Shown here in pieces: positions 8,786-32,663 of a DNA stretch of 34,376 nucleotides (the stretch's first letter is position 1; every line of letters starts with the position of its first letter). The notes beneath the pieces are model-generated. The model did no database searches. It saw only the letters and a program-made list of their open reading frames with translations, and was not told the origin of the DNA. The position numbers and the translations under genes were made by a program. Source of the stretch: a virus; IMG/VR virus record IMGVR_UViG_3300043570_004326, positions 1-34,376 of that record; one strand, 5' to 3'.

Positions 8786-8801
8786 CTGAGAGTCTTACCT
8801 C

Positions 8802-16253: not shown

Positions 16254-16285
16254 GACTTTCGACCTTCAGACCTTCCACCTTCAGA
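16254..16285. repeat. GACCTTC-family leader repeat
   Basis: Degenerate copies of GACCTTC/CACCTTCA fill the gap between 16246 and ATG 16293. This is the same family as at 18897-18930, 21121-21177, 22083-22120, 22900-22930 and 25513-25547. Confidence 0.65.
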
Positions 16286-16292
16286 CACAATC

Positions 16293-16847: not shown

Positions 16848-16850
16848 CCC

Positions 16851-16886
16851 GTCAACCAGGTCAACCCCGTCAACAAAGTCAAATCC
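16851..16886. repeat. GTCAACNNN tandem leader repeat (period 9, four units)
   Basis: Four consecutive 9-mers start GTCAACCAG, GTCAACCCC, GTCAACAAA and GTCAAATCC, between the GemA-like stop and ATG 16914. The family recurs at 17380-17415 and 29933-29968. Confidence 0.85.
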
Positions 16887-16913
16887 TCACAACCACTTAA
16901 ACCGACACACACC

Positions 16914-17336
16914 ATGCAAGCTACCCACCCCATCACCGAAGTGCCCCTCCACGGCCTCAAAATCGTCCCCACCAAACCCGGACCCGGCGACATCGTCAAC
17001 ATCACCGGCCAGCCCGATGACGTCGCCCGCTACGGCGTCGTCCGCATGCTCCGCCGTCAAGATGGCTCCTACATGCCCGTCATCAAAACCTACTCACGTT
17101 GGATCAAGCTCACCGCCACCACCTTGATTGATCTTGGCCTTGCCAACTGCCTCAGCCGCCAAACCATCGATCGCCTCATCCAATGCGGAGTTATCGACTC
17201 CAGCCAACCATCGCCCCAAGTCGTCCTCATCGATGTGGATAGCTTGCTCACCCACCTCGAACGCACCCGCGAGCCCGGCTGGTGGACCGACGAGCGCCGC
17301 AAAGCCTTCCGCCTCGGCCTCCCCATCAAAGTCTAA
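16914..17336 (+). CDS. Protein with HTH-like segment, unknown function
   Basis: This 140-residue protein has an N-terminal part with a GPGDIVNITGQPDD turn, then a helix-turn-helix-like stretch LSRQTIDRLIQCGVID (about 84-99) and an S/T-Q-P-S-P loop leading into a final helical part. It may be a small regulator of middle or late genes, since no Mor/C activator is recognisable elsewhere. That role is speculation. Confidence 0.5.
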   Translation: MQATHPITEVPLHGLKIVPTKPGPGDIVNITGQPDDVARYGVVRMLRRQDGSYMPVIKTYSRWIKLTATTLIDLGLANCLSRQTIDRLIQCGVIDSSQPSPQVVLIDVDSLLTHLERTREPGWWTDERRKAFRLGLPIKV

Positions 17337-17348
17337 ACGCAGCACACC

Positions 17349-17378
17349 AGGTGTGCCGAGCAAACGCTCGGCACACCT
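17349..17378. other. Perfect 13-bp stem hairpin between early genes
   Basis: The arms AGGTGTGCCGAGC and GCTCGGCACACCT surround an AAAC loop. No T-run follows; instead the GTCAAC 9-mer repeat starts at once (17380). It could be a rho-dependent terminator element, an RNA-processing site or an operator. Confidence 0.65.
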
Positions 17379-17379
17379 C

Positions 17380-17415
17380 GTCAACAAGGTCAACCCCGTC
17401 AACCAAGTCAACTCA
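17380..17415. repeat. GTCAACNNN tandem leader repeat (period 9, four units)
   Basis: The 9-mers GTCAACAAG, GTCAACCCC, GTCAACCAA and GTCAACTCA run from the hairpin to 12 bases before the HNH gene ATG. The last spacer is CCAGACACAGCC. Confidence 0.85.
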
Positions 17416-17427
17416 CCAGACACAGCC

Positions 17428-17850
17428 ATGCCAGTCGACTACAGAAACTACCCCATCAACTGGAAAACCCACATCCGCCCCGCCATCCTCAAACGCGCGG
17501 GCGGCAAATGTGAAAAATGCGGCATGAAAAACTACGCCATCGTCCTCGCAGGAACCCGCTGCCTTTTAGTTGAATACTCCACCTACAAAGACGCCAAGCA
17601 AAACCTCGGATGGTACCACGACCCCATCGACGGCAAAGCCATCATCATCGTCCTCACCATTGCCCACAAAGACCACAACCCCATGAACAGCAATCCCGAG
17701 AATCTCCTCGCACTTTGCCAAGCCTGCCACAACCGCATGGACGTCCGCCACCGCATCGCCACCCGCCAGCGGAACCGCCGCCGCAAGCTCGCCAAGATCG
17801 CCCCCGAACTCCCCCTCATCACCGACCTCGTCACCAACATCACTGCCTAA
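17428..17850 (+). CDS. HNH endonuclease
   Basis: This 140-residue HNH-type nuclease has zinc-knuckle pairs C28-x2-C31 and C97-x2-C100. The beta-beta-alpha core has H80 and H83 in TIAHKDHNP, N in NPENLLALC and H101 in CQACHNRM. I chose ATG 17428 because the domain starts shortly after and the leader repeat ends there; the longer frame from 17128 overlaps the previous gene. Phage HNH proteins can act in packaging, recombination or as homing enzymes. This one lies in the early/middle region away from the terminase, so packaging is not obvious. Confidence 0.8.
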   Translation: MPVDYRNYPINWKTHIRPAILKRAGGKCEKCGMKNYAIVLAGTRCLLVEYSTYKDAKQNLGWYHDPIDGKAIIIVLTIAHKDHNPMNSNPENLLALCQACHNRMDVRHRIATRQRNRRRKLAKIAPELPLITDLVTNITA

Positions 17851-17880
17851 TTTCAGCATTTCAGTTTTTCAGCTTTTTCC
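17851..17880. repeat. TTTCAGNN tandem leader repeat (period 8)
   Basis: TTTCAGCA, TTTCAGTT and TTTCAGCT follow the HNH stop codon without a gap and lead to ATG 17888. The same family fills 18641-18680. Confidence 0.85.
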
Positions 17881-17887
17881 CATTTAT

Positions 17888-18265
17888 ATGAAAGTCCCCA
17901 TCCAGCTAGACCCTTCCCACCACGAATACACCCGCACCGCCGTCATCACCATCGAGATCCTCAGTGATGGCCTCTGCGACATCCACCCCAACATCACCCG
18001 CGAGGAGCCCACCGCCGCCGACCTCACCCAAATCATCTCCACACTCCCCCAAGCACTCTCGCCGAGCCTCGCCGAGGTCGCCAAGCCACTTTTCCCACCT
18101 CATCGCCACAATATCGGTTACCCACACCCGACCACCACCAGCGTCGAAAACCAAATCATCCGCGATCTCGGCTTTGACCCTCACGCCGCCAACCCGTTCC
18201 TTACCGCCCAAATCCTCCGCGCCATCCGCCACAAAACAATCAATCAAATGGGTCACCAGTCATAA
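17888..18265 (+). CDS. Unknown protein
   Basis: This 125-residue protein has a beta-rich N-terminus (VPIQLDPSHHEYTRTAVITIEILSDG) and a more helical C-terminal half. No family is recognised. It is flanked on both sides by tandem leader repeats of different families, which supports it as a true cistron. Confidence 0.5.
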   Translation: MKVPIQLDPSHHEYTRTAVITIEILSDGLCDIHPNITREEPTAADLTQIISTLPQALSPSLAEVAKPLFPPHRHNIGYPHPTTTSVENQIIRDLGFDPHAANPFLTAQILRAIRHKTINQMGHQS

Positions 18266-18301
18266 CTCCCCTAATTCCCATCCGTCCCATAACTCCACCT
18301 T
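18266..18301. repeat. NTCCCATNN tandem leader repeat (period 9, four units)
   Basis: CTCCCCTAA, TTCCCATCC, GTCCCATAA and CTCCACCTT begin exactly after the upstream stop and end four bases before ATG 18306. Related arrays lie at 21782-21807 and 30816-30851. Confidence 0.85.
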
Positions 18302-18305
18302 CGTC

Positions 18306-18638
18306 ATGACCGCCACTCTCGCCAACGACCTCACCCTCGCCGCAGGCATCCTCCAAGCAGGTTGCACATGCACCGGCATCAGCATCAGCCGCATGCGCAC
18401 CTTAGTAGGATTAGACGAGACCGCTGAGACCTGGCACCTCTATACTATCGTCCACGCAATGCGATCTGGCTTCATCACTTGGCAAGCCATGGCCGAGGTA
18501 TTCGAGTGTGATCTGCCGCAAGTCACCCGCCTAATCAAGATCATCAGTGATCGTGATTACTACAACCGCCAAGTCATGTTCCGCGTCGCCTCCCAGATCT
18601 ACGCCGAGAACGCCACCGCCCCCATCAGCCGCGCATAA
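18306..18638 (+). CDS. Small helical protein of unknown function
   Basis: This is a 110-residue helical protein. One stretch, WQAMAEVFECDLPQVTRLIKIISD, has HTH character. I used ATG 18306, directly after a leader repeat, instead of the longer frame from 17964 that overlaps the previous gene. It may be a DNA-binding regulator; no family is recognised. Confidence 0.5.
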   Translation: MTATLANDLTLAAGILQAGCTCTGISISRMRTLVGLDETAETWHLYTIVHAMRSGFITWQAMAEVFECDLPQVTRLIKIISDRDYYNRQVMFRVASQIYAENATAPISRA

Positions 18639-18640
18639 AG

Positions 18641-18680
18641 TTTCAGCATTTCAGTTTTTCAACTTTTCAGCATTTACCCA
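18641..18680. repeat. TTTCAGNN tandem leader repeat (period 8, five units)
   Basis: TTTCAGCA, TTTCAGTT, TTTCAACT, TTTCAGCA and TTTACCCA run from two bases after the stop up to ATG 18680. Confidence 0.85.
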
Positions 18681-18892
18681 TGCACCCCATCCTCAAAGAT
18701 CTCCAGAAAGGCCAATCATCCGTCGATGCCATCCGCCTGCGCCTCGGTGTCCATGGCGACATCATCGCCGCCGAGCTTCTCCGCTACAAAGCAGACGGCC
18801 TCGTCGAGGATCGATTCATCAATCACCTCATCACCGTCTACCGCCTCACCCCCAAAGGCCACCAACTCCTAGCCGATCTCGCCACCGCATAA
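18680..18892 (+). CDS. Small winged-helix-like protein
   Basis: In this 70-residue protein, LQKGQSSVDAIRLRLGVHGDIIAAELLRYKADGLV followed by HLITVYRLTPKGHQLL is the order of a winged-helix DNA-binding fold. It is short for a free-standing regulator but resembles small phage wHTH proteins. It lies between tandem leader repeats, directly before the MuF gene, so it may control the late genes. Confidence 0.55.
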   Translation: MHPILKDLQKGQSSVDAIRLRLGVHGDIIAAELLRYKADGLVEDRFINHLITVYRLTPKGHQLLADLATA

Positions 18893-18930
18893 GACACCTT
18901 CAGACCTTCGACCTTCAGACCTTCGACCCA

Positions 18931-20622
18931 ATGTTAGCCATTCCCCACGACCAAGCCACCGCCCTCATCGCCGGAAAACCAGAAGTCACCCGCGCCGTCT
19001 GGGACCAACTCCATCCCGATCTACAGGCCCGCGCTTACACGATAACCGGCATTGAGTGCCTCGACACCATCGCCAACGTCCGCCGCCTCACCGCCAGCCT
19101 GCCCAGTGGTGGCGACTTCGATGACCTCAAAGACGAAATCTTCGACCAAATCAGCCCCTTTCTCATCGACCCGAATGCTAGCGAGGAGGACCAACTCAAA
19201 CAAACCCGCGCCGCCAACCGCCGCGCCGAAATGCTCCTCCGCCTCCACGGCTGGACCGCCTACGCCCAGACCCAGCACGCCCTCGCCGAGGCCCACAGCG
19301 ATGTCTTCCCCTTTCGCCAATACCTCTCCAGCGAGGACTCCCGCGTCCGCCCCGCCCATGCAGCACTCAACAAAAAGATCCTCCCTGCCGATCATCCCTT
19401 TTGGCTCAACCACACCCCACCATGGGAATTCAACTGCCGCTGTGACATGGTCGTCATGACCAAGGACGACGTCGATGCCATCTCCGCCAGCGAGACCAAG
19501 CTCCCCGACGAAGACAAAAAAGTCCTCCCCCAAAGTCAGCTCAACCAGATCGCCACCCAGCAACGCATCGTCAAGCCCGGTGGCCAAGGATTCCTCGACA
19601 TCCGCACCCCACGCGAAAAGGGCGGGGGAAAAGGCTACGAATTCCGCCCCGCCGACAACAACCTCCCCCTCGAACAAATCCTCGAACGCTTCGCCCCCTC
19701 CGAGAAAAGCCTCTTCCAGTCATGGGCCGCCACCATCCGGCTGAGCGATGGCCGCACCCTCGCCGACTACTGGTCATTGAATAAAAAAACCAAACCTCCA
19801 GTCCGCAAAAAGGCAAAACCTACCGCGCGCAATGCTGCCACGATTCGCACCCGCCTCGAAACCGAAATCAAAGCTGATCACGAGAAAGCCCTCGCTAAAA
19901 TCGTTGAGAAAAAAGCCCTCGCCGCTAAGGCCCGCACCGACTACTGGAAAGCCCAAAATGATACCATTGATCTCCAAAAACAAATCTACGAGGCCGCTAT
20001 CACCGATATTGTTAAAGCTGAGGTAGAGCTAGAACACATCATCGAACGCGCCCGTACCATCATCGAGATCCCAGAATCTGAGCGCGGATCAGTTCGCTTT
20101 ATCCCCACAAAAGGACTCGTAAAGAAACCCAACATACTCGAAGGCAAGCGCCTCACTGAGCGATACACGCATAAAGATCTTCTACCCGAGATCGACATCG
20201 TCTCTCACAAAGGCCGCGCTCACTACATGCCCAGCACCAAGGCCATTCACGTAAGCAGCTCCACCGACTATGATGTCGTCATGCACGAGATCACCCACGG
20301 CACCGAGATCCAGACGCCCGAAGTCCTCGCCGCATCCCGCGCCTACCTCCTCAAACGTGCCGATGGCAAAAAAACCGTGAAACTCAGCGTAGTCACCGGG
20401 TATAACTACAAAGCCAACGAAGTCACCTACGAGGACGAATGGGCCACAAAAGGAGGCTCTCCATACATTGGCAAAGACTACGGCAACGCCGCCACCGAAA
20501 TACTCACCATGGGCATCCAGCGCTTACACCGAGACCCCTATCTCTTTGCTTCCCAAGATCCAGACTACTTCGACTTTGTCACCACCACCCTTCAAAAACT
20601 TCCCACAGACACAACACCATGA
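18931..20622 (+). CDS. MuF-type head morphogenesis protein with C-terminal HExxH domain
   Basis: This is a 563-residue protein. Residues about 90-180 carry the MuF (Mu gp30-like) head-morphogenesis domain, with FRQYLSSEDSRVRPAH, a PWEFNCRC element (C169, C171) and following strands. Usual MuF proteins end near 300-400 residues. This one continues through a Lys/Ala/Glu coiled coil (about 290-400) into an extra domain with H452-E-I-T-H456, a zincin HExxH motif, then a Tyr/Glu-rich segment and AATEILTMGIQ that could supply the third ligand. The C-terminal half is less GC- and C3-biased than the N-terminal half. MuF proteins in temperate phages are known to carry polymorphic toxin domains injected or displayed with the head. 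The stop overlaps the next gene by ATGA. The domain calls are good; the toxin role is inferred. Confidence 0.82.
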   Translation: MLAIPHDQATALIAGKPEVTRAVWDQLHPDLQARAYTITGIECLDTIANVRRLTASLPSGGDFDDLKDEIFDQISPFLIDPNASEEDQLKQTRAANRRAEMLLRLHGWTAYAQTQHALAEAHSDVFPFRQYLSSEDSRVRPAHAALNKKILPADHPFWLNHTPPWEFNCRCDMVVMTKDDVDAISASETKLPDEDKKVLPQSQLNQIATQQRIVKPGGQGFLDIRTPREKGGGKGYEFRPADNNLPLEQILERFAPSEKSLFQSWAATIRLSDGRTLADYWSLNKKTKPPVRKKAKPTARNAATIRTRLETEIKADHEKALAKIVEKKALAAKARTDYWKAQNDTIDLQKQIYEAAITDIVKAEVELEHIIERARTIIEIPESERGSVRFIPTKGLVKKPNILEGKRLTERYTHKDLLPEIDIVSHKGRAHYMPSTKAIHVSSSTDYDVVMHEITHGTEIQTPEVLAASRAYLLKRADGKKTVKLSVVTGYNYKANEVTYEDEWATKGGSPYIGKDYGNAATEILTMGIQRLHRDPYLFASQDPDYFDFVTTTLQKLPTDTTP

Positions 20623-20909
20623 ACTCACCAGCACACCAACACATTGAACTCAAAACCTTTGGCGTCACCTACCTTTATGAAGGTGGAAAAACCCTAAAGA
20701 TTATCAATAAGGAACCAATCAGCATCGACATCAAAGACACCATTGAGCGAGAGCTAAAAACAACACAAACCCATCACATCCCATCGCTCAAAGTCATCAC
20801 CGATATTGTGATCGGCATTATCGAAGGCATGGACACCAAAGTAGAATACACCATCACAGATGTAACTACGCCCAACGATTTCCCCACTCCAGACAACGCA
20901 ATCGAATAG
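20619..20909 (+). CDS. Unknown small protein, candidate immunity partner of MuF C-terminal domain
   Basis: This 96-residue protein of beta-alpha-beta appearance (VTYLYEGGKTLKIINKEPISIDI, then helix, then TKVEYTITDV) has no recognised family. Its ATG overlaps the MuF stop. It shares the lower GC and different codon use of the MuF C-terminal module, so the two probably arrived together. The position and size suit an immunity or inhibitor protein for the HExxH domain. Confidence 0.55.
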   Translation: MNSPAHQHIELKTFGVTYLYEGGKTLKIINKEPISIDIKDTIERELKTTQTHHIPSLKVITDIVIGIIEGMDTKVEYTITDVTTPNDFPTPDNAIE

Positions 20910-20912
20910 GCC

Positions 20913-21107
20913 ATGAGATCCAAATCCAACGCCTGCTCGGGCAAAGTCCGCCACCGCAATCGGCACGCCGCCATCAAGGCCCTCAAAGCCATCAACAATC
21001 GCGGCCTCAGCGGCTACCCATGCCCCTATTGTAAGGGATGGCACCTAGGAAACAACCCCAAGAAATTCCAAGACCGCCTCGACCAACTTTTGGATCCAAA
21101 ATCATAG
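20913..21107 (+). CDS. Small zinc-ribbon-like basic protein
   Basis: This 64-residue protein is basic, with C9 and a C37-x2-C40 pair in YPCPYCKGWHLG followed by H43. It looks like a short treble-clef or zinc-knuckle unit (phage proteins with a CPYC-x-WH motif are common, of unknown function). It begins three bases after the previous stop. Confidence 0.55.
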   Translation: MRSKSNACSGKVRHRNRHAAIKALKAINNRGLSGYPCPYCKGWHLGNNPKKFQDRLDQLLDPKS

Positions 21108-21120
21108 CATCCCGACTTTA

Positions 21121-21177
21121 GACCTTCGACCTTCAGACCTTCGACCTTCAGACCTTCGACCTTCAGACCTTCGACCC
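21121..21177. repeat. Longest leader array: GACCTTCGACCTTCA, 3.7 copies
   Basis: A 15-bp unit made of GACCTTC plus GACCTTCA repeats almost perfectly, preceded by CCCGACTTTA and ending three bases before ATG 21181. It covers nearly the entire gap. There are no spacers, so it is not a CRISPR array. Confidence 0.9.
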
Positions 21178-21180
21178 CAA

Positions 21181-21462
21181 ATGACCTACCACATCACAGT
21201 AACATTCACCCCCACCAATGGTGGCATCTTCCGTGCCGTCGCCCGCCACGATGACTCCATCCATGGCCGCGCCACATGCACCAGCTCCGCCCGCGTCGCC
21301 GCCAATGCCGTCATCGCCAAGACATGCGATCTGCAAGCCGCCGCCAACATCCGCGAGATCAGTGAAGCCGAGGCCCACACCATCCCCTGGTTAAAAGCCC
21401 GCCTCTCCAGACTCAAAACCAAACACAAAGTCCACCACTACGTTTGCGTCTATCTCCATTAA
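21181..21462 (+). CDS. Unknown small protein
   Basis: This 93-residue protein has strands TYHITVTFTP and GIFRAVARHDD, then an Ala-rich helix and a basic C-terminus ending in VHHYVCVYLH. No family is recognised. It is preceded by the longest leader repeat of the window. Confidence 0.5.
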   Translation: MTYHITVTFTPTNGGIFRAVARHDDSIHGRATCTSSARVAANAVIAKTCDLQAAANIREISEAEAHTIPWLKARLSRLKTKHKVHHYVCVYLH

Positions 21463-21481
21463 CACCCCATTCTCAACCACC

Positions 21482-21781
21482 ATGTCAGACCTATACTTAA
21501 TACCAGAAGAACAAGGCGCAATCACACTCCCAGACTGGATTGGAGGCGCATCACTTACCTTAGCCGAGATCGGCGCGATCGCGTGCTTTGCATGCCTACG
21601 AAATGAAAGTGAAGTCCCAGAAGTTTCCGAGCGCATCGGCACACCGGAAATGATGGAAGCCCTTCAATCACTCAAAGACAAAGGAGTCATCAAAATAAGC
21701 ACCACCGGCAATCGAGTCTCAGTGCAAATCGATCTCACCCCAGTCATGCCCGCATGCCTCAAAGATGAAGACGAAGAATAA
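21482..21781 (+). CDS. Small winged-helix-like protein of unknown function
   Basis: This 99-residue acidic protein has helices and a possible wing (MMEALQSLKDKGVIKISTTGNRVSVQIDL) that resemble replication-initiation-type winged helices of phages. Two cysteines lie in ACFACL. Codon use is less C-rich than its neighbours. No firm family. Confidence 0.5.
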   Translation: MSDLYLIPEEQGAITLPDWIGGASLTLAEIGAIACFACLRNESEVPEVSERIGTPEMMEALQSLKDKGVIKISTTGNRVSVQIDLTPVMPACLKDEDEE

Positions 21782-21807
21782 TTCCCATAACTCCCATCCC
21801 TCCCATC
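21782..21807. repeat. NTCCCATNN tandem leader repeat (period 9)
   Basis: TTCCCATAA, CTCCCATCC and CTCCCATC fill every base between stop 21781 and ATG 21808. Confidence 0.88.
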
Positions 21808-22077
21808 ATGAGCGATACCCAAAACCACACCTTCGTCATCACCATTCGCAACAAAAGCACCGTTCGCACCGTGCGCGGCAAATGGGAAACCCACGGCAAC
21901 GACAGCAAACTCACCACCGTAGAATACGCCGCCATCGTATTCAAATCCATCGCCTGCGATCCCAACGTCCACCTCGGCAGCGGTGACAAAATCACCTTCA
22001 CCTTCACCCAAAAGAAAACGCCAAAGCCCAAAAAACCAAAATCCGCCCGATCATCCAAATCCGGCAAATCAGACTGA
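21808..22077 (+). CDS. Unknown small protein with basic tail
   Basis: This 89-residue protein has a beta-rich first 65 residues (FVITIRNKSTVRTVRGKWE), then a Lys/Pro/Ser-rich tail. It may bind nucleic acid through the tail. No family is recognised. It is bounded by leader repeats of two families. Confidence 0.5.
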   Translation: MSDTQNHTFVITIRNKSTVRTVRGKWETHGNDSKLTTVEYAAIVFKSIACDPNVHLGSGDKITFTFTQKKTPKPKKPKSARSSKSGKSD

Positions 22078-22129
22078 TCTTTCTCCCGACTTTCGACCTT
22101 AGACCTTCCCACCTTCGACCCCCAGCAAA

Positions 22130-22624
22130 ATGATCACCGTCCGCACCCGCGATTTCATCACCCCCGATCTCATCGCCAAATACAAAGCCGCAGGCGACAA
22201 AGTCGGCATCCACCAAGCCATCGGCCTTGGCCTCTCATCCCTCACCAAGCGTGCCTGGACAGACTCCAGCCTCCGCCCCTTATCCTGGGCAAACAAAGCC
22301 GACGGCTCCGCCGCCACCCTCCGCAAATCGGGCACGCTCGCCAAGTCCATCCGCACCATCGCCACCGCGCGGGCCGCCACCATTGCCAGCGATCGACACT
22401 ACGCCGCCATCCACCAGCTTGGAGGACGAACCCAGCCCCACGTCATCCTCCCCAAAAACAAAAAAGCCCTCAAAACCCCCTACGGCATCTTCAAGAAAGT
22501 CAATCACCCCGGAAGCAACATTCCCGCCCGTCCCTTCATGCCATTTGATCCCACTGGCAAACCCACCGCCCACGCCTTCAAAATGATCAACCAAGTCCTC
22601 AAACGCAAACTCGGCATCCCCTGA
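22130..22624 (+). CDS. Virion morphogenesis protein, Mu gpG-like
   Basis: This 164-residue protein shows the pattern of the phage virion morphogenesis (tail completion) family that includes Mu gpG: LRKSGTLAKSIRTIA, then YAAIHQLGG and near the end IPARPFMPF. In Mu, gpG acts in head-tail maturation. Its place between MuF and the I protease matches Mu, although six small genes lie between it and MuF. Confidence 0.8.
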   Translation: MITVRTRDFITPDLIAKYKAAGDKVGIHQAIGLGLSSLTKRAWTDSSLRPLSWANKADGSAATLRKSGTLAKSIRTIATARAATIASDRHYAAIHQLGGRTQPHVILPKNKKALKTPYGIFKKVNHPGSNIPARPFMPFDPTGKPTAHAFKMINQVLKRKLGIP

Positions 22625-22655
22625 GAGACACAAGACCACCAGACACAAGACATAA
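22625..22655. repeat. AGACACA/AGACATA leader repeat (period about 7)
   Basis: AGACACA, AGACCACC, AGACACA and AGACATA stand in series right after the gpG-like stop and before ATG 22669. A two-unit relative is at 8772-8785. Confidence 0.65.
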
Positions 22656-22668
22656 GCCAAAACCACTC

Positions 22669-22857
22669 ATGACCGACTCCACCAAAAGCCTCATCGAAGA
22701 AATCATCGCCGTCCTCTGGTCAATTCTGTGGGCCATCTTTTACGTAAACCAAGCCCACTCGATACTTTTGTGGATCTGTGGATTCAAAGCCATCAGCGAT
22801 CACATCACCGCCATCTACTACGCCTATCGCGCCCACTTCAAACCTCAAAATCCGTAA
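22669..22857 (+). CDS. Small membrane protein
   Basis: This 62-residue protein has a hydrophobic segment at about residues 12-37 (IAVLWSILWAIFYV and on) and an aromatic, basic tail. No family is recognised. The stop codon lies in the first unit of an ATCCGTAA repeat. It is the last gene before a strong terminator. Confidence 0.5.
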   Translation: MTDSTKSLIEEIIAVLWSILWAIFYVNQAHSILLWICGFKAISDHITAIYYAYRAHFKPQNP

Positions 22858-22875
22858 ATCCGTAAAATCCGTCGT
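22849..22875. repeat. ATCCGTNNN tandem repeat (period 9)
   Basis: AATCCGTAA, ATCCGTAAA and ATCCGTCGT overlap the stop of the small membrane gene. The same family is at 26000-26026, before the gene at 26038. A GACCTTC-type stretch follows at 22900-22930. Confidence 0.7.
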
Positions 22876-22964
22876 TCCCCCCCCAACCCCAGCTCCCGAC
22901 TTTCCACCTTCGACTTTAAGACCTTCCGACCCAAACACAGACCCTTTCCACCTCCCCAACCACC

Positions 22965-23001
22965 CCCGCCGCAGGTTCACACCTCGGCGGGTTTTCTTTT
23001 T
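22965..23001 (+). terminator. Strong intrinsic terminator before the head genes
   Basis: CCCGCCG pairs with CGGCGGG, with an inner AGGT/ACCT extension past a single bulged base, and is followed by TTTTCTTTTT. It lies nine bases before the I-protease ATG. It should end the upstream transcript or act as an attenuator, so head genes need readthrough, antitermination or a promoter I could not find. Confidence 0.8.
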
Positions 23002-23010
23002 ACTACACCC

Positions 23011-23985: not shown

Positions 23986-24028
23986 CCCAACCCACTGCTC
24001 ACTGATCACTTCCAACTAATCACATCTC

Positions 24029-24448: not shown

Positions 24449-24495
24449 CCCCTAACCACCGCTCACTGATCACTCATCACTAGCCACTACCTCCT

Positions 24496-25404: not shown

Positions 25405-25444
25405 TCCCGCATTCCCCCAGCCCCCCACCGCTGCATGACCCAAG

Positions 25445-25480
25445 AGAGGGGGAGTCCTAAAAAACTCCCCCTCTTTTATT
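25445..25480 (+). terminator. Intrinsic terminator after the major capsid gene
   Basis: A perfect 11-bp stem, AGAGGGGGAGT with ACTCCCCCTCT, has an 8-base loop and is followed by TTTATTT. It fits termination or partial attenuation after the highly expressed capsid gene. Confidence 0.85.
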
Positions 25481-25547
25481 TCCTCCCCGCCTCAAAAGCG
25501 GAACCACCGCTCCCGACTTTCGACCTTAGACCTTCCCACCTTCGACC

Positions 25548-25979
25548 ATGTATTCCACCCGCATCGCCATCGAGACCCTCATCCCGCCCCAGTTCGTCAC
25601 CCAAGCTCTCGACGACAACGGTGACGGCACAGAGGACACAGGCCTCTTCGATGCCATCGCCGCCGCTGCCGATGCCCAGGTCGATGCCTACCTCAGCGGA
25701 CGCTTCGCCACCCCCTTTCCCGATCCCGCGCCAGCCCTCGTCGCAGAGGCCGCCAAAGTCTTCATTGCCGAGACCCTCTACGCCCGCCGTGGCTTCGCAG
25801 GCGAGGCCAATCCCTACACCGCGCGCGCCAACAAACTCCGCTCCCAGCTCGAAGCCATCGGCAACGGTGATGGCTCCCTCGGCGGAGTCAGCGAGGCTCC
25901 CGCCGCAGGCAACCGCGCCCCCATCTCCACCGTCACCGAGCCCTCCCGCACCACACCCCGCCACAAACTCAACGGCTAA
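25548..25979 (+). CDS. Mu gp36-like (DUF1320) head-tail connector protein
   Basis: This 143-residue protein has the family pattern: an opening helix with IETLIPP, then DTGLFDAIAAAADAQVDAYLSGRFATPFP and the VAEAAKVFIAETLYARRG helix. Gp36/DUF1320 proteins are thought to be adaptors at the head-tail junction. The place after the major capsid agrees with Mu. A GACCTTC leader repeat reaches the ATG. Confidence 0.82.
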   Translation: MYSTRIAIETLIPPQFVTQALDDNGDGTEDTGLFDAIAAAADAQVDAYLSGRFATPFPDPAPALVAEAAKVFIAETLYARRGFAGEANPYTARANKLRSQLEAIGNGDGSLGGVSEAPAAGNRAPISTVTEPSRTTPRHKLNG

Positions 25980-26037
25980 AATTCTCCTCTCTTTTTCCCA
26001 TCCGTAAATCCGTTCAATCCGTCGTTAAAAAAACTTT

Positions 26038-26907
26038 ATGAAATTCGCCAACATCACCGCCAACCACTCCCTCCTAGGCAAAGCATCTCCCACGCTGGAA
26101 GGCAGCAAAGGCAATCGCCGCTTTGGATCAGAAGACGCCATCCAGCTAAAGACATCGGACCACATGGTAGCTCGCCAGATCCTCGCGCTCTCCAGCGGTA
26201 AAATCGTCACCCTCGATCTCGCTACAGGACTATTCACCCTGCCAGAAGAAGAGAACATCAACGCCGTCGCCCAAGTTGAGACCATCAGCGCCGCTGGCAC
26301 CATCACCACCGCAGGATCAGTGGCACTCCTCGTCACCTCCAATGCCGGGGCCTACGGAGAATTTCCCCGCACCTTCGCCGTCCGCGTCAAAGTCGGCGAT
26401 ACCGCATCCACCTGGGCAAACAAAGTCCGCCTCCAACTCTCCCGCGATACCATCATCCAAAAATACTACACCGTCGGTGGATCAGGCGAGGACATCAGCC
26501 TCACCCGCCGCATCAATCTTTTTGGCGAGCAAAATGATTCAGGTCTTACCATGGAACTCGGAAATGGCACATGCAGCGGCGTCAGCAGTGCCGAATCCAC
26601 GGCCACCACCGCTGGGGTCGAATTCGTCGGCGCTCTTGTCGATCTTAACACAAACACCGATGCCGAGGGCCTCACCAACCCATCACCCGAGGATTACAAT
26701 GCACTCCTCATCATTGCCGAGAGCGGAGCCCTCACCGTCTCGGATAACCTCCTAGCCCCCGAGACCCTATACGCCACAATTTACGGTCAAATCCACAGCA
26801 AAGCCGCCCTGCAAATCAGCGGTGGTGGCATCCCCGGCACGCTCGAATTCCAGAACAACGGCACCACCCTCAGCGCCCGCATCATCTGGGCCTACGAGGC
26901 AAACTAA
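26038..26907 (+). CDS. Probable virion structural protein
   Basis: This 289-residue protein has no family I can name. The N-terminal 75 residues look compact. Residues about 85-175 show a pattern seen in many phage virion proteins: ITTAGSVALLVTSNAGAYG, VKVGDTASTWANKVRLQL, YYTVGGSGEDISLTRR and a later TTAGVEF. It may be a small all-beta decoration or tail domain. It lies between the connector and tail genes, so it is probably a virion part. Confidence 0.55.
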   Translation: MKFANITANHSLLGKASPTLEGSKGNRRFGSEDAIQLKTSDHMVARQILALSSGKIVTLDLATGLFTLPEEENINAVAQVETISAAGTITTAGSVALLVTSNAGAYGEFPRTFAVRVKVGDTASTWANKVRLQLSRDTIIQKYYTVGGSGEDISLTRRINLFGEQNDSGLTMELGNGTCSGVSSAESTATTAGVEFVGALVDLNTNTDAEGLTNPSPEDYNALLIIAESGALTVSDNLLAPETLYATIYGQIHSKAALQISGGGIPGTLEFQNNGTTLSARIIWAYEAN

Positions 26908-26948
26908 CCACCCCAGTCAATCCACTGCTCAACACTGAAAAAAAAGTC

Positions 26949-27338
26949 ATGCCCGCTTACCCCAACCCCCGCTCACTCGCCCAGATCCAAGCCGATCTCG
27001 CCGCCAACAAGAATATCGATGAGCCCCAGATCTTCATCGACATCCTCACCGCCTTGGCATTTTCCGCCCTCGGCCAACCCGCCGTCGCCCGCCAGCTCGC
27101 CGCTGGCGCTACCTCCGCCAGCACCGCGCTCACCAGCACATGCCGCCGCATCTCCATTCGCGCCACAGGGGCCTCCATCCGCTACCGCATCGGCACTGGC
27201 ACCCAAATCGCGGGCGGCACCTCCCACCTCATCGCCCAAGACGAGCGCCTTGACCTAGCAGTCCCCGCCGATGCCCAAATCGGCATCATCCGCGCCGCCT
27301 CCACCGATGGCGTCCTAGAACTCACCGAGCTTGCCTAA
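26949..27338 (+). CDS. Small virion-type protein of unknown function
   Basis: This 129-residue protein has an N-terminal helical part, then a beta-rich end (RISIRATGASIRYRIGTGTQIAGGTSHLIAQDERLDLAVP and GVLELTEL). That end resembles small phage surface or tail-adjacent proteins usually annotated as hypothetical. The neighbours suggest it is structural. Confidence 0.55.
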   Translation: MPAYPNPRSLAQIQADLAANKNIDEPQIFIDILTALAFSALGQPAVARQLAAGATSASTALTSTCRRISIRATGASIRYRIGTGTQIAGGTSHLIAQDERLDLAVPADAQIGIIRAASTDGVLELTELA

Positions 27339-27368
27339 CACGGATCACTTCACACTCAACCAGACACA

Positions 27369-28811
27369 ATGCGCCTCTCCGCCACACGACTCTCCGCCAC
27401 CGGCCACCCATCCGGCGCATTTTCTTTTTCAGACCCAGACGCCCGCGCCCACTACGCCACTCTCGTCGCCGCTGCAGTACCCGTCACCACCAGTTATGCT
27501 CGTCGACTTGATCTCGCATTCACCACGCTTGCCAATGCTGGCATCAAAGACGAGCTGATCCTTGGTTGCTACTTTGGCAGCGATGGGCAAGCAGCAACGG
27601 GCAACCCGATCCCGTTCGCGGGAACGTCACGCGCATTGCAAGGCACCTTCAGCCGTGGAGCAAATGGCTGGACAGCAGATCAAACGGCGACGCAGGGTCT
27701 CGCCTTTACGATCCCCGACACTCGAACCGGAACGGTATTCATCGACACAGTGCCGGGCGGAGTCGTGAATAGCGCATCGGGCGGGGGCATTTGTGTTGTC
27801 TCGAATGCGTCTGGCACGTTCTGGAACAACTCGCACATCTGGGGTTACGACGGGACAAACAAAACTCGTCTTTCCAGAATCGCAGTAGGTAACACAACGC
27901 ACCAAACATCTCTCGTTAGTCAAAGCACCGTTGAGCGTGCTTTACCTCGCAACTCTCGCCAATTCCGCGTGCATGGATTTACCTATGGCACAAACACGGT
28001 AAAATCATGGGTGGATGGCGCGGAGTCCAACCCCGCGACTGCCGCATCTCCCGTGCAAAGCGTTTCTCTCACAAACGTCTCGCTTTTTGCCCGCAGCTTC
28101 AACTCTGGCACATTCTCCAGCGTAGACCGCTACGTCGGCACAATCCGCAGTATTTTAATTTTCAACCGCGAGCTAACATCAACAGAAGCACGAGCCGCGA
28201 GCGTCGCTGAAATGATCCTCGACCCCGCGCCAACGCTGATGATCATCGAGGGCGACTCCACCGCCGAAGAAGTCGATTTCTTGACACGCACGGTGGATCA
28301 CTGGGGGAAAAAGCTCGAAGCAAAATCCAACTGGTCAAACGTGCGACAAGTCAACATCGCCACATCTGGGATGGCCTGTGAAGGATATGATGCAACATAT
28401 CAAAACTGGAACACCCAAGCGGCATGGCTTACCCCTGCGGCACTTGGCAAAAATGTGTGGTTTTCGATTCTCGGAAGCATCAACGATATTGGTCAAGGCA
28501 CGCGCACAGCAGCTCAGATTTATGGGTATCAGCGTGACTACGCAGCCAAGGCGCGCGCGGTGGGTATGAAGACGATGATTCACGTCTGCCCCACTCCGAT
28601 TGCCCCAACATGGGACGCCGCCAAAGTGACGCGCAGCAATGATGTGCGAGCGCAGATTTTGGCAAATGCCGTGGCGGATGGATTCAACGCGGTAATTGAT
28701 GCATCTGTGGTGGTAGATCTTTCGAATGCTGCAAATCGTGTGGATGACGTTCACGCCAACGGCACAGGAAACGACCTATGGGCAACCGCTATCAATGCCG
28801 TCACCCCCTGA
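27369..28811 (+). CDS. SGNH-hydrolase virion protein with LamG-like N-terminal part
   Basis: This is a 480-residue protein. Residues about 110-285 look like a concanavalin/LamG-type sandwich (GTVFIDTVPGG, a W/Y-rich centre, VDRYVGTIRSILIFNRELTSTEA). Residues about 290-480 form an SGNH hydrolase: block I G295-D-S297, block III G369-S-I-N372-D and block V D459-x2-H462. The Ser-Asp-His set predicts an esterase that trims acyl groups from host glycans during adsorption. Codon use and GC differ from neighbours (far fewer NNC codons after about codon 60), and the N-terminal 40 residues look native. This points to an acquired receptor-binding or depolymerase module. The enzyme class is well supported; the target is unknown. 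Confidence 0.82.
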   Translation: MRLSATRLSATGHPSGAFSFSDPDARAHYATLVAAAVPVTTSYARRLDLAFTTLANAGIKDELILGCYFGSDGQAATGNPIPFAGTSRALQGTFSRGANGWTADQTATQGLAFTIPDTRTGTVFIDTVPGGVVNSASGGGICVVSNASGTFWNNSHIWGYDGTNKTRLSRIAVGNTTHQTSLVSQSTVERALPRNSRQFRVHGFTYGTNTVKSWVDGAESNPATAASPVQSVSLTNVSLFARSFNSGTFSSVDRYVGTIRSILIFNRELTSTEARAASVAEMILDPAPTLMIIEGDSTAEEVDFLTRTVDHWGKKLEAKSNWSNVRQVNIATSGMACEGYDATYQNWNTQAAWLTPAALGKNVWFSILGSINDIGQGTRTAAQIYGYQRDYAAKARAVGMKTMIHVCPTPIAPTWDAAKVTRSNDVRAQILANAVADGFNAVIDASVVVDLSNAANRVDDVHANGTGNDLWATAINAVTP

Positions 28812-28837
28812 TCACTGCTCACTAACCACTTCATAAA

Positions 28838-29341
28838 ATGAACCTCTCTCCCCAAGCCATCCTCAAAGCCGTCGTCACCACCATGACCGCGCGCACGACC
28901 GAGCTCAAAGGCACGATCTCCATCGCCAAGGACCCTGAGGACATGATCCGCCAACTCACCGTTTCACCCTCCACCTTCCGCGCCATCTTCATGTGGCCCG
29001 GCTACGCGCCGAACGCCAATGCCGCCCACGGCGTCACCACCGATCGCCTCGAAGTCGTCATCCAAGTCGCCGCAGGCCTCCACGTCGACGAGTCCCAATA
29101 CCTCACCACCTCTCGCCCTGGTGCCACGCCAAGCCTCATGGAACTCATCAGCGACTACGAGCAACGCATCCGCGCCCTCCGCTTCCCGACCGACGCTGGC
29201 ATCGATCCCACAGGCTACACCCTCCAGAACTCCGAGTATCTCCTCATCGAAGGCATCGTCACCACCCAACACCAACTCTCATTCACCCTCGAACGCGCGC
29301 TAAAATCCCACCCCACCGTCATCCCCGTCACCATCCCATAA
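28838..29341 (+). CDS. Probable tail terminator or neck protein
   Basis: This 167-residue alpha/beta protein has a helix (SPQAILKAVVTTMTAR), strands including DRLEVVIQVAAGLHVDESQYL and a later LIEGIVTTQHQLSFTLERAL. Size and position, directly before the tube-like gene, fit a tail terminator of a long-tailed phage. No family is firmly recognised. Confidence 0.5.
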   Translation: MNLSPQAILKAVVTTMTARTTELKGTISIAKDPEDMIRQLTVSPSTFRAIFMWPGYAPNANAAHGVTTDRLEVVIQVAAGLHVDESQYLTTSRPGATPSLMELISDYEQRIRALRFPTDAGIDPTGYTLQNSEYLLIEGIVTTQHQLSFTLERALKSHPTVIPVTIP

Positions 29342-29357
29342 TCAACCCCAGTCAAAC

Positions 29358-29375
29358 CACTGATCACTGATCACT
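29358..29375. repeat. ACTGATC tandem leader repeat (period 7)
   Basis: The same 18-base string as at 13848 and 32626 stands between the terminator-like and tube-like genes. It contains two TGATCA (GATC) sites. Confidence 0.8.
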
Positions 29376-29397
29376 CCACACTCACCACTAAATTACC

Positions 29398-29877
29398 ATG
29401 TCACTTAACACCATCATCCCCGGCTACCTCGCCATCGGCGAACTCCCAGAAAACGTCATCTTCGGCACCGCTCAAATCGGTGACGACTTCGGCACCGTCA
29501 AATCCGCCACCCTCGATCGCACTGGCGACACTGAGGAAATCCTCAACGGCAACGGCGGACTCCGCACGCTCTTGATCAACAACCCGCGTAGTGAATTCTC
29601 ACTCGATACCTTGTTCACCAGTGATGTCGAAGCCCCCGGCCTCGGCGAGCTGATCGCCTTCCCACTCCTCGCCGATACCCTCGGCAACCCCGTTTGCGGA
29701 TCGATCTTAAAAGTCACCGTCAAGTGGGAAGAAAAAGGCGCACGCATGCTCACCATCACCGCCACCAACTGGGACAGCCTCGGTGCCCGCCCAACGGCCA
29801 AATCCTACGAACCCGCCACTGGCACCTGGTCCGCCGTAGAGCAAACCGTCGATCTCCCCGACATCATCGAAGACTAA
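29398..29877 (+). CDS. Probable major tail tube protein
   Basis: This 159-residue beta-rich protein opens with GYLAIGELPENVIFGTAQIGDDFG, then SATLDRTGDTEEILNGNGGLRTLL, FSLDTLFTSD and VTVKWEEKGARMLTITATNW. This is the tube-type pattern of an N-terminal hook with strand pairs. It precedes the chaperone frameshift pair and tape measure, the standard place. No sheath gene is found beside it, implying a non-contractile tail. Confidence 0.65.
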   Translation: MSLNTIIPGYLAIGELPENVIFGTAQIGDDFGTVKSATLDRTGDTEEILNGNGGLRTLLINNPRSEFSLDTLFTSDVEAPGLGELIAFPLLADTLGNPVCGSILKVTVKWEEKGARMLTITATNWDSLGARPTAKSYEPATGTWSAVEQTVDLPDIIED

Positions 29878-29886
29878 CCAACCCTC

Positions 29887-29922
29887 ATGGTGGGTCGGAA
29901 CCTCCCCCCTCCGACCCGCCAT
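29887..29922. terminator. Hairpin after the tube gene, terminator-like
   Basis: The arms ATGGTGGGTCGGA and TCCGACCCGCCAT make 13 pairs including one G-T, around a 10-base C-rich loop. No T-run follows, so termination would have to be factor-dependent. It may stabilise the upstream transcript. A GTCAAC 9-mer leader follows at 29933-29968. Confidence 0.5.
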
Positions 29923-30027
29923 CCTCACCACCGTCAACAAAGTCCCCACCGTCAACAAAGTCCCATCCCACACAACCCCTACTAGTGACCAGTGACTAGT
30001 GACCAACCTACCAAAAGACACAACACC

Positions 30028-30714
30028 ATGCAAGCTCCCAAACTCCCACAACCCGGCGAAATCCTCACCCACGAGCAAGCCGCATTCTTCTCCCACCTCG
30101 CAGGCATGCACGCCAAAAGCCTCGCCGAGTCCACCGGCTCCAACCCCGCCGCCGCCCGCCACATCGCCAGCGCCGCCCGCCAACACCTTCCCACTTTTGG
30201 ACCTTCCGACCTTCGACCCTTAACAGTCGGCATGCTCTGGGCCATCGAATCCATCGCCGCCCTTTTCCGCGATGCCGCCCTCGACGACACCGATGACCTC
30301 GCCCTTTCTCTCCTCGTCTTCACCGATCCCGAGCGGGCCGATGCCCTCATCGAACGCGGCAACCAAGCCGATCTCCTCCACGCCGCACGCCAACTGATCC
30401 GCCCGCTCACCATTCCCCAGCTTCGCGAGGCCAGTGCCCACATCGCCATGGAAATGAGCGCCCTCACCGCCCAGGGAAAGCCCAGCCCGGCGGGGGCCAA
30501 TCCGCCGCAGGCCAACACCGAGGCGAATCCGCCATTTGCCACTCCGCCAACCAATCAGGCCCTCCCGATGGCTGGACCATCGCCCTCGTCGATCTCCTCC
30601 ATTCAGAATACCACGTCACCCTTCACGACGCCGTCTGGAGATACCCCCTCAAAGCCGCATTTGCCCTCTTGCCCAGCCGATCCTACCGACTCGGCCACGA
30701 GCCCACAGGCATGA
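30028..30714 (+). CDS. Tail assembly chaperone, short form (lambda gpG-like)
   Basis: This 228-residue zero-frame product has an N-terminal helical domain (about 1-150) that looks folded, while the part after residue 151 is low-complexity Pro/Ser/Thr, as expected if it is only the by-product of not shifting. I start at ATG 30028 after AGACACAACACC; the ATG at 29992 lies in the repeat-rich gap. A copy of the GACCTTC repeat is embedded in codons at about 30194-30221. It lies before the tape measure, where the G/GT chaperones that coat it are always found. Confidence 0.65.
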   Translation: MQAPKLPQPGEILTHEQAAFFSHLAGMHAKSLAESTGSNPAAARHIASAARQHLPTFGPSDLRPLTVGMLWAIESIAALFRDAALDDTDDLALSLLVFTDPERADALIERGNQADLLHAARQLIRPLTIPQLREASAHIAMEMSALTAQGKPSPAGANPPQANTEANPPFATPPTNQALPMAGPSPSSISSIQNTTSPFTTPSGDTPSKPHLPSCPADPTDSATSPQA

Positions 30715-30815
30715 CCACCTCCGACGAGGCCTACGTCACCGCTAAGCTCGCCGAGATGGCACGCCTCCGCGCCCTCTACCACGTCCTCCCCAGCCGCCGC
30801 GCCAAAAAAGCATAA
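30028..30815 (+). CDS. Tail assembly chaperone, frameshifted long form (lambda gpGT-like)
   Basis: The lambda-type slippery heptamer GGGAAAG lies at 30474-30480 in the correct phase (G GGA AAG). A -1 shift there moves translation from residue 151 into a frame that stays open to 30815, giving 262 residues. The shifted part looks like real protein: GWTIALVDLLHSEYHVTLHD, YPLKAAFALLPSRSY, and MARLRALYHVLPSRRAKKA at the end. The downstream frame also has an ATG overlapping the zero-frame TGA (30711), which could give a 34-residue peptide, but the protein-like sequence begins well before it. GT forms bridge the tube and tape measure during assembly. Confidence 0.72.
30474..30480 (+). promoter_or_regulatory. 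Programmed -1 frameshift site GGGAAAG
   Basis: This heptamer is identical to the one used by lambda G-GT. It is in X-XXY-YYZ phase with the chaperone reading frame, and the -1 frame is open for 111 codons after it. GC-rich sequence follows, but I did not define a stimulatory structure. Confidence 0.72.
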
Positions 30816-30851
30816 TTCCCATCACTCCCCTAAGTCCCATCCCCTCAACCC
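30816..30851. repeat. NTCCCATNN tandem leader repeat (period 9, four units)
   Basis: TTCCCATCA, CTCCCCTAA, GTCCCATCC and CCTCAACCC occupy exactly the 36 bases between the chaperone stop and the tape-measure ATG. Confidence 0.85.
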
Positions 30852-32615
30852 ATGTCCAGCATCTCCTACAGCGTCGGTCTCGATACCTCGAAATTCCAAG
30901 GAGCCATCGGCATCATGCGGAAAGGCATCGGCGGTATCGGCTCCCTCATGGGTGGTCTCAGCAAAGCCCTACCTGTAGGCGCTCTCATCGGTGGCATCGG
31001 TGGTGTCACTGGCGCTCTCGCCCTACTCAAAAAATCCTCCAACCTCGCCGCCGATTTTGAAAGCACCAGCCTCGCCATGGGAACCCTCATTGGCAATGCC
31101 GAGAAAACAAAAACCGTACTCGAGCAAATCGACGCCCTCGCATCGTCCACCCCTTTCGAGTTTCCCGAACTCGCCGAGTCAGGCAAAATGCTCATCGCCT
31201 TCAACGAGTCCGCCGATACCGTCGCCGATACCCTGCGACGCGTCGGCGATGTCTCCTCTGGCATCCAGGCACCCATCCGCGAGATCGCTGAGCTTTACGG
31301 CAAGGCCCGCGTCCAAGGCACCCTTTTCGCCGAGGACATCAACCAAATGACAGGCCGCGGCATCCCCATCATCCAAGAACTTGCCAAAGTCCTCAACGTC
31401 ACCGACTCCGAGATCAAGAAACTCGCCTCTGATGGCAAGATCACTTTCCCCATGTTGCAACAAGCCTTCATCAACCTCACCAGTGAGGGCGGGAAGTTTT
31501 ACAACATGATGGCCACCCAAAGCGCCTCCACCAACGGCCTCCTTTCCACCCTTACCGATGGATGGAATAAACTTCTCCGCACCGTAGGTACCCCGCTCAA
31601 CGATTGGCTTCGCCCCCAGATCTCCGGCTGGATCGAGCGCCTCGACTCCGCTGGCGTTCGCCTCTCCGCATTCATTTCACTTCTCCGCCAAGCTCAATCT
31701 TCCGGGAACCTTGGCGATTTTCTAGGAGCTGGTCTCACCGTCGCATTCACTGAGGGCATCAACGTCTTTTCTTCTGGCATTCGTGGTGGCGTCGCATTCC
31801 TCGCCGAGACCATCCCCGGCATCTTCCGCTCGGGCATGTCATTCTTGAGCGATTCAGGATTCCTCATCGTCCTTCGTGAGGCCTTCCGTGGCATCGGTGA
31901 GCAATTCTCCGCCCAGATCCTCCAGACCCTCTCGAATGTCCCTGGTCTCGGCAACCTCGCCGACAACGCCAACGCCTCGCAAAACAACGCCAACACCGCC
32001 TTTGGCAATCTACCCTTTCTCACCAACGCCTTGCGCTTTGACAAAGGCATTGAGGCCAGCGCCAAGATCCTCCGCGAGACCATGGAAAAAGGAGCCGCCG
32101 CATGGAAAGGCGCAAACCAAGAGCGCCTCATCGACAACACCGCCGCCAAGGCCCGCCTCAAAGAACTCGGCGAAAGTCTCAACCCAGAAGCCTACGCCGA
32201 ACTCGTCACTGGCGAGTCCAAGCGCCAAGCCGCCATCGCCGAGACCGTGAAAAAAGCCGAGGGCCTCGACGAGGCACTCAAAAAAGCAGGGGACTCCGCA
32301 GAAAAAACAGGCAAGAAAATTTCCCGTGACATGTTCCCTGGTGCCATCCAGTCAGACTCCCCTGATCGACCCTTGCGGAAAATCTTCATGAAGAAACTCC
32401 GCGATGGCGATCCCAATGCCGAGCAATTCGTCCCCGGTCCCGATGGCCTATTCGTAAAAGCCCAAGCCGTCCAAAACGCAGGCCGCAATAGCTTCGGAAA
32501 AAACCGCCCGCCACGCGAGGCCAAAGACAAAGCGCCAACTATCGACCCTCTCACACGGATCTGGACCGAGATCAAAGAAACCAACCGCCGCCTCGGCGAA
32601 CTCGGCCTAGCATAA
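30852..32615 (+). CDS. Tail tape measure protein
   Basis: This is a 587-residue protein. The N-terminal region has Gly/Ile-rich hydrophobic helices, then the tape-measure domain pattern: LAADFESTSLAMGTLIGNAEKTKTV, LASSTPFEFPELAESGKMLIAF, VQGTLFAEDINQMTGRGIPII and MMATQSASTNGLLSTLTDGWNKL. Hydrophobic stretches at about 300-345 could form the membrane-active part; the rest is helical. Tape measures set tail length. With the usual 0.15 nm per residue the tail would be around 90 nm, short for a siphovirus. It follows the chaperone pair. Confidence 0.85.
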   Translation: MSSISYSVGLDTSKFQGAIGIMRKGIGGIGSLMGGLSKALPVGALIGGIGGVTGALALLKKSSNLAADFESTSLAMGTLIGNAEKTKTVLEQIDALASSTPFEFPELAESGKMLIAFNESADTVADTLRRVGDVSSGIQAPIREIAELYGKARVQGTLFAEDINQMTGRGIPIIQELAKVLNVTDSEIKKLASDGKITFPMLQQAFINLTSEGGKFYNMMATQSASTNGLLSTLTDGWNKLLRTVGTPLNDWLRPQISGWIERLDSAGVRLSAFISLLRQAQSSGNLGDFLGAGLTVAFTEGINVFSSGIRGGVAFLAETIPGIFRSGMSFLSDSGFLIVLREAFRGIGEQFSAQILQTLSNVPGLGNLADNANASQNNANTAFGNLPFLTNALRFDKGIEASAKILRETMEKGAAAWKGANQERLIDNTAAKARLKELGESLNPEAYAELVTGESKRQAAIAETVKKAEGLDEALKKAGDSAEKTGKKISRDMFPGAIQSDSPDRPLRKIFMKKLRDGDPNAEQFVPGPDGLFVKAQAVQNAGRNSFGKNRPPREAKDKAPTIDPLTRIWTEIKETNRRLGELGLA

Positions 32616-32625
32616 CCCTTTCTTC

Positions 32626-32643
32626 CACTGATCACTGATCACT
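32626..32643. repeat. ACTGATC tandem leader repeat (period 7)
   Basis: The identical CAC plus two TGATCAC units plus T lies before the portal gene. It is followed by CACTAGACACTACAAAA and ATG 32664. Confidence 0.8.
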
Positions 32644-32663
32644 TCACACTAGACACTACAAAA

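Follow-up and report, generated by a model that had tools for sequence, protein, structure and literature searches.

What fills the short gaps between the genes on the right arm of a Mu-like phage, and what might the filling do there? The window, which is the whole stretch of 34,376 bases analyzed here, is the virus record IMGVR_UViG_3300043570_004326. Many of its right-arm gaps run as tandem arrays of short units with periods of 7, 8 and 9 nucleotides. These arrays lie directly upstream of start codons, mostly lack Shine-Dalgarno (SD) sites, are poor in G and fold weakly; the same leaders are found before some housekeeping genes of host chromosomes, and one family of arrays is replaced by another at orthologous genes. 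Sequence comparison groups them with other intergenic repeats, of period 7 and also of 8 and 9, that appear in the chromosomes and phages of Verrucomicrobiae. We lean towards reading the arrays as a limited set of interchangeable, G-poor non-SD leader modules, each of 25–60 nt and placed after one stop codon and ahead of the following ATG, that would keep starts open and whose repeats may act as recombination seams.

The periodicity of the gaps is well above what base composition produces. The best score at lags 5 to 12, summed over 30 right-arm gaps, is 232.5, compared with 154.4 in dinucleotide-preserving shuffles (n = 200, standard deviation 7.2, maximum 174.5) and 137.8 in length-matched coding stretches (standard deviation 8.0, maximum 165.5). 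About 13 of the 30 gaps singly exceed 95% of their shuffles, where 1.5 are expected. The ungapped lag score undercounts arrays of mixed period 7 and 8, such as the one at 18896–18928, which has a score of 66 in Tandem Repeats Finder (TRF), and genes were called as the longest open reading frame (ORF). Five arrays above threshold are counted in the window and five in the 14-kb close relative L032 (IMGVR_UViG_3300042458_002673, 14.3 kb), which has 15 genes in common with the window at 35–96% amino-acid identity; phage Mu, a control of 36.7 kb, has none. At least eight unit families coexist in the window. At several ACTGATC sites only one or two units are perfect, and ACT holds the 7-nt register over about five units (e.g. 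29358–29391). The initial annotation, which had described right-arm gaps filled by tandem repeats and had proposed an autocorrelation check against composition-matched shuffles, is thus borne out by the summed score. The families that it had named were found at or near the plus-strand positions given to them, together with the AGACATA pair on the minus strand at 8771–8787. The TCCCAT arrays at 18266 and 30816 and the ATCCGT array at 26000 are not individually above shuffles. Likewise, the claim that arrays use every base of their gap is true of 21782–21807, but 30816–30851 forms no significant array.

The arrays are listed below by window coordinates, with the L032 counterpart where compared; fractions give the shuffles that reached the score.

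8771–8787, minus strand: AGACATA array upstream of the minus-strand ORF 8488–8748 (TRF and sequence)
13848–13888, plus strand: ACTGATC leader that overlaps the end of ORF 13620–13853 and precedes the MuB-like gene (13898) (TRF)
16254–16286, plus strand: GACCTTC/GACCTTCA leader before ORF 16293 (TRF and lag score)
16851–16882, plus strand: GTCAACNNN leader before ORF 16914 (5/200)
17380–17412, plus strand: GTCAACNNN leader before ORF 17428, with a hairpin upstream at about 17349–17378 (2/200)
17851–17879, plus strand: TTTCAGNN leader before ORF 17888 (3/200)
18266–18292, plus strand: weak TCCCAT leader before ORF 18306 (36/200, not significant alone)
18641–18675, plus strand: TTTCAGNN leader before ORF 18680 (2/200)
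18896–18928, plus strand: GACCTTCA plus GACCTTC with period 15, before the gpF-like minor head gene (18931) (TRF score 66)
21113–21176, plus strand: four copies of GACCTTCA plus GACCTTC, the longest array, before ORF 21181; TTTCAG in L032 (TRF score 115)
21782–21807, plus strand: TCCCAT array that takes up the entire gap before ORF 21808 (0/200)
22083–22121, plus strand: GACCTTC leader of the virion-morphogenesis gene 22130; L032 has the same family, 91% identical
22625–22656, plus strand: AGACACA array before ORF 22669 (5/200)
22847–22876, plus strand: ATCCGT array at the 3' end of ORF 22669–22857, where L032 homology begins (TRF)
22897–22930, plus strand: degenerate GACCTTC array in the gap before the protease gene 23011; hairpin plus TTTCAG in L032
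23995–24025, plus strand: ACTGATC leader before ORF 24029; GACCTTC in L032 (1/200)
24458–24490, plus strand: ACTGATC leader of the major head gene 24496; L032 has this family too (1/200)
25511–25547, plus strand: GACCTTC leader before ORF 25548; 97% identical to L032 1604–1640, in another gap
26000–26022, plus strand: ATCCGT leader, weak alone, before ORF 26038; ACTGATC in L032 (TRF)
Before 26949: ACTGCTC-like leader; GACCTTC in L032
Before 27369: AGACACA leader; TCCCAT in L032
28805–28832, plus strand: ACTGATC/ACTGCTC leader before ORF 28838; GACCTTC in L032
29358–29391, plus strand: ACTGATC leader before ORF 29398; L032 has this family too (0/200)
29928–29964, plus strand: GTCAAC array in the gap before ORF 30028 (TRF score 74, 100% matches)
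29984–30005, plus strand: AGTGACC array, a second family in the same gap, next to the ATG of ORF 30028; absent from L032
30816–30840, plus strand: weak TCCCAT leader of the tape-measure gene 30852; L032 has a TTTCAG array
32626–32657, plus strand: ACTGATC leader of the portal gene 32664; L032 has TCCCAT/AGACACA (0/200)

Array-like repeats also lie inside coding sequence, namely a GACCTTC-like one at 30185–30218 (ORF 30028–30714, also in L032) and a GTCAAC-like one at 13173–13207, at the 3' end of a MuA-like ORF. The AGACACA unit, often as AGACACAACACC, stands within 30 nt of nine ATGs (starts 13620, 13898, 16055, 16293, 17428, 20619, 22669, 27369 and 30028), and its copies in the window number 12 on the plus strand and 0 on the minus strand.

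The leaders differ from coding sequence in composition and in structure. An SD-like 4-mer is present between positions –20 and –4 at 2 of 37 starts, compared with 0.8 expected from shuffled leaders and 5.1 at random coding positions. The G content is 10.0% in the gaps and 20.8% in coding sequence. Both results agree with the earlier observations that SD sequences are mostly absent and that G is scarce on the sense strand. The mean minimum free energy (MFE) of the leaders is –1.25 kcal/mol per 40 nt, compared with –6.0 for coding sequence and –4.8 for their own reverse complements. Folding is weakest around the start codon, where the 40-nt MFE ranges from –0.66 to –0.92 at offsets of –10 to +10, against –6.3 at +50. 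An RNA hairpin is rejected as the function of the arrays, since the leaders fold as weakly as their shuffles; it is also contradicted in head-to-head arrays of other genomes, whose arms, compared by eye, often differ by A opposite C, which would break the pairing. Pairing of the leader with the 16S tail (TGATC with GATCA), a consideration made on paper only, fits one family of the eight. The three bases before the ATG favor A-C-C, both at window starts and in host sucD leaders (L301–L330).

Leaders change between the two related phages. The leader adjoining the start differs between the window and L032 in 9 of 14 comparable gaps (starts 21181, 24029, 26038, 26949, 27369, 28838, 30028, 30852 and 32664). 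The switched gaps align at 0.47–0.69 identity, which is no better or only slightly better than shuffles, whereas the genes are 63–92% identical over their first 150 nt. Gaps that keep their family are 80–91% identical to those of L032. The gap ahead of 23011 is conserved at its 5' ATCCGT array and in its 3' part (98% over the last 45 nt) but differs in the middle; the ATCCGT array at 22847 marks the point where homology to L032 resumes after non-homologous genes. Furthermore, the GACCTTC leader at 25511–25547 matches over 37 nt, with 97% identity, an L032 leader that belongs to a different gap, which argues that whole modules are copied.

The window carries the gene set of a Mu-like phage. Matches to PHROG and Pfam include a MuB-like transposition protein, a gpF-like minor head protein, a head maturation protease, a major head protein, a tape measure protein, a portal protein and a terminase; the MuB assignment, for the gene starting at 13898, rests on PHROG 296. 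The MuA-like ORF at 11423–13270 has no family match in the PHROG and Pfam search, and no match was found when MuA was searched against INPHARED phages. Homologues of this ORF and of the major head protein are present in Verrucomicrobiae genomes, where MuB, head and tail genes are clustered as prophages and several MuA-like homologues adjoin MuB and head genes. The host class of the phage is likely Verrucomicrobiae. The gene order is odd for a Mu-like phage: the terminase lies in a minus-strand left arm (163–10073), and the portal gene (32664–34205) follows the tape-measure gene. Among the tail genes, 27369–28811 has a weak match to GDSL-like lipase/acylhydrolase below the Pfam cut-off.

The same leaders occur in host chromosomes. 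The composite leader CACTGATCACT-N3-CACT-…-ATG has 15 copies in 12 of 25 Verrucomicrobiae genomes and none in the backward control; its ATG opens a frame of at least 80 codons in 14 of the 15 copies, compared with 27% for random ATGs. This leader stands directly upstream of purA, pyrG, sucD and glnS. Similarly, CACTGATCACTGATCAC occurs in 20 of 286 Verrucomicrobiae genomes, with 92 copies in all and a backward control of 0. The sequence GACCTTCAGACCTTCGACCTTC is found in 25 stretches of named genomes from several phyla: its carriers in Verrucomicrobiota include Geminisphaera colitermitum TAV2 and an Akkermansiaceae metagenome-assembled genome (MAG), and those elsewhere belong to Kiritimatiellota and Bacteroidota or are a Thermomicrobiales MAG and a Calditrichaeota MAG. 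TTTCAG, GACCTTC and TCCCAT arrays each occur in subsets of 20 Verrucomicrobiae genomes, the backward control for TTTCAG being nonzero in three. The 15-mer AGACACAACACCATG was found in only 2 of the 286 genomes, so this leader is not evidently common in Verrucomicrobiae.

Family replacement is also seen in host genes. Two purA orthologues that are 93% identical carry an ACTGATC array in the genome G285 and a TTCGCGTCCA-type array in G202. The 10-nt unit TTCGCGTCCA builds a tandem purA leader ending in GGTTAAA or GGTTCAA in several genomes (L332, L334, L335 and L341). Thirty sucD leaders of relatives vary widely and contain 7% G. Unit sharing among six genomes exceeds chance (3 against 0.46, p = 0.0075); between host chunks and the viral set it shows no excess (3 against 2.5 by chance). 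In the host statistics based on ACTGATC, the loci were partly picked by the ACTGATC pattern itself. The initial annotation had asked whether the units recur in hosts and related phages, and they are present in both. The composite leader before purA, pyrG, sucD and glnS shows sharing with host genes, which is compatible with its suggestion that the phage leaders may have been copied from host leaders.

Other phages carry arrays of their own. In G445, a prophage relative with a head protein 42% identical to that of the window, the gaps are filled by other heptamers (AATCCGC, CCCATGA, TTTCAAC and AAATCCT), and the density is 8.9 arrays per 10 kb in the prophage and 0.6 in the G445 chromosome. The prophage G488 has a few arrays.

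If the arrays are interchangeable leader modules, selection would act on composition and openness, allowing the 30S subunit to load without SD pairing, possibly with the assistance of ribosomal protein S1. Any G-poor word rich in A, C and T would serve. Tandem duplication and recombination between dispersed copies would make and swap the words, which could account for the observed replacement. The repeats may also serve as seams for gene gain, loss or exchange, and the periodicity would be a mark of how leaders are made and not of how they function.

Several observations weigh against such a reading. Shuffled leaders, with an MFE of –1.08, are as weakly folded as the real ones, so a G-poor composition suffices for openness and periodicity is not needed; periodicity itself is left unexplained by the translation model. 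Leader switching in phages is known from one pair, the window and L032. Arrays are not a requirement, since none above threshold is present in the more distant relatives L140, L141, L285 and G348; because L140, L141 and L285 are homologous phages, the idea of a phage-lineage trait was discarded, and the arrays are an acquired style, not a fixed trait of this lineage. In co-directional gaps of other viral contigs, 153 arrays are sense and 159 antisense. Arrays of other phages and of hosts also occupy convergent gaps, and in the phage contigs L028, L036 and L075 an array lies upstream of an ordinary SD site. In these three contigs an ACTGATC array (at 11839 in L028) is followed directly by a normal SD site and ATG, showing that array and SD can coexist. 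Replacement of SD by arrays everywhere is thereby ruled out. Given both orientations, the convergent gaps and the arrays before SD sites, the arrays are not simply a substitute for SD. Of the initial proposal of unstructured ribosome-loading leaders, the weak folding and the lack of SD therefore stand, but openness comes from composition and a plain substitution for SD falls away.

The same observations lend weight to the explanation that the arrays are neutral filler, that is, slippage products tolerated in intergenic DNA, with strand bias and G-poverty arising from weak general selection against structure at starts. The equally open shuffles, the two polarities and convergent positions elsewhere, and the several homologous phages and prophages without arrays would all fit; some bacteria also have many long simple sequence repeats (SSRs) with 7-nt units (Mrazek 2007, as cited in PMC4679880). 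However, slippage does not explain one family at five to six unlinked gaps of a 34-kb genome, leaders 97% identical in different gaps, replacement by another recognizable family at orthologous gaps, or the same composite leader before four host genes. Slippage alone is disfavored by these recurring families, copied leaders, family replacement and host sharing, and we regard neutral filler as unlikely. The arrays could instead be recombination linkers, dispersed short homologies at gene boundaries that serve single-gene exchange between phages, with a secondary role as leaders. Genes unique to the window or to L032 are flanked by leaders, homology resumes at the ATCCGT array, and GACCTTC leaders are near-identical in different gaps. 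However, many switched leaders lie between two conserved genes (e.g. 24029 and 28838), which indicates leader change without gene exchange, and in host chromosomes these leaders stand before individual housekeeping genes, so that linkers as the primary role are quite improbable.

Array polarity in other phages and in hosts brings in a different kind of explanation. Where two arrays of opposite type share a gap and lie within 150 nt, the G-rich array precedes the C-rich one (head-to-head) in 77 of 81 pairs and follows it in 4 (p ~ 1e-18), among loci that were selected for holding an array and with simple gene calls. This order is independent of gene direction (L005–L100, L115–L139, L192–L231 and L243–L282), and across genes in viral contigs it tends to reverse (56 to 21). 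Because the rule is strand-symmetric, it cannot reflect transcription alone. The arrays might accordingly be half-sites of an inverted, head-to-head element at the DNA level, which a process of repeat addition or of insertion would create and whose polarity would be set by the gap and not by transcription. However, every array seen in co-directional gaps of the window and L032 is a C-rich sense array, neither an enzyme nor a boundary sequence was identified, and naive gene calling and the choice of loci bear on the survey itself; we find the half-site explanation very doubtful. It is rather unlikely that Verrucomicrobiae and their phages share a lexicon of repeat words, which an active process would add at gene boundaries with a fixed head-to-head polarity and swap between genes, so that the leader would turn over faster than its gene and the start would stay functional.

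How do the leader modules compare with known systems? Lambdoid phages have boundary (linker) sequences at module borders, short homologies that could guide modular exchange. Unlike these linkers, the window linker is itself replaced while both flanking genes stay. Cyanobacterial short tandemly repeated repetitive (STRR) heptamers are intergenic and fall into several families. Unlike STRRs and the long prokaryotic SSRs with units of 5–11 nt, of which heptamers are the commonest class according to the citation of Mrazek (2007) in PMC4679880, the window arrays are short, imperfect and strand-polarized and abut start codons. The initial annotation had known no named system of this kind; the TAACTGA direct repeats of Beggiatoaceae (MacGregor 2015, PMC4679880) are, however, a near precedent. 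They end within a few nucleotides of start codons, mostly in forward orientation, canonical ribosome binding sites are rare and no RNA structure is predicted; they are also found in Cyanobacteria and Bacteroidetes, and S1, Csp or Csr have been proposed as binders (PMC4679880). TAACTGA is a permutation of ACTGATA, and the ACTGATC of the window is one base off in the same orientation to the start; the TRF listing of the window contains no ACTGATA array, and the window unit is not TAACTGA itself. Like the TAACTGA repeats, the ACTGATC arrays of the right arm run in sense orientation and occupy the gap just upstream of an ATG, and few ribosome binding sites stand behind the window arrays (the 2 of 37 starts above). 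Unlike that system, in which one unit dominates and related heptamers are seldom repeated, the window has at least eight families, carried by a phage and replacing one another at orthologous genes.

In the parts consulted of two further sources, Bacteroidetes are described as having non-SD leaders with reduced structure before starts, for which S1 binding to the unstructured 5' untranslated region has been proposed (PMC3155529), and SD-scarce Verrucomicrobia are reported (PMC10783764). As far as these parts go, the window leaders resemble those of Bacteroidetes in being SD-less and less structured than coding sequence, loading without SD would be consistent with both reports, and tandem repeats and module exchange are features of the window that neither describes. 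Neither heptamer arrays in Verrucomicrobia nor phage leaders of this type turned up in a search of the open-access literature.

Compared with known repeats, what appears new on the sequence evidence is the coexistence of several families, the phage carrier, the sharing with host housekeeping genes and the family switching at orthologous genes. The choice of start codons in bacteria without SD sites is an open question on which these leaders bear. Natural leader swaps at one phage or host gene are ready pairs for separating the effects of composition, periodicity and unit sequence. Furthermore, arrays of other genomes stand head to head, an order that hints at some undescribed way in which intergenic repeats are made.

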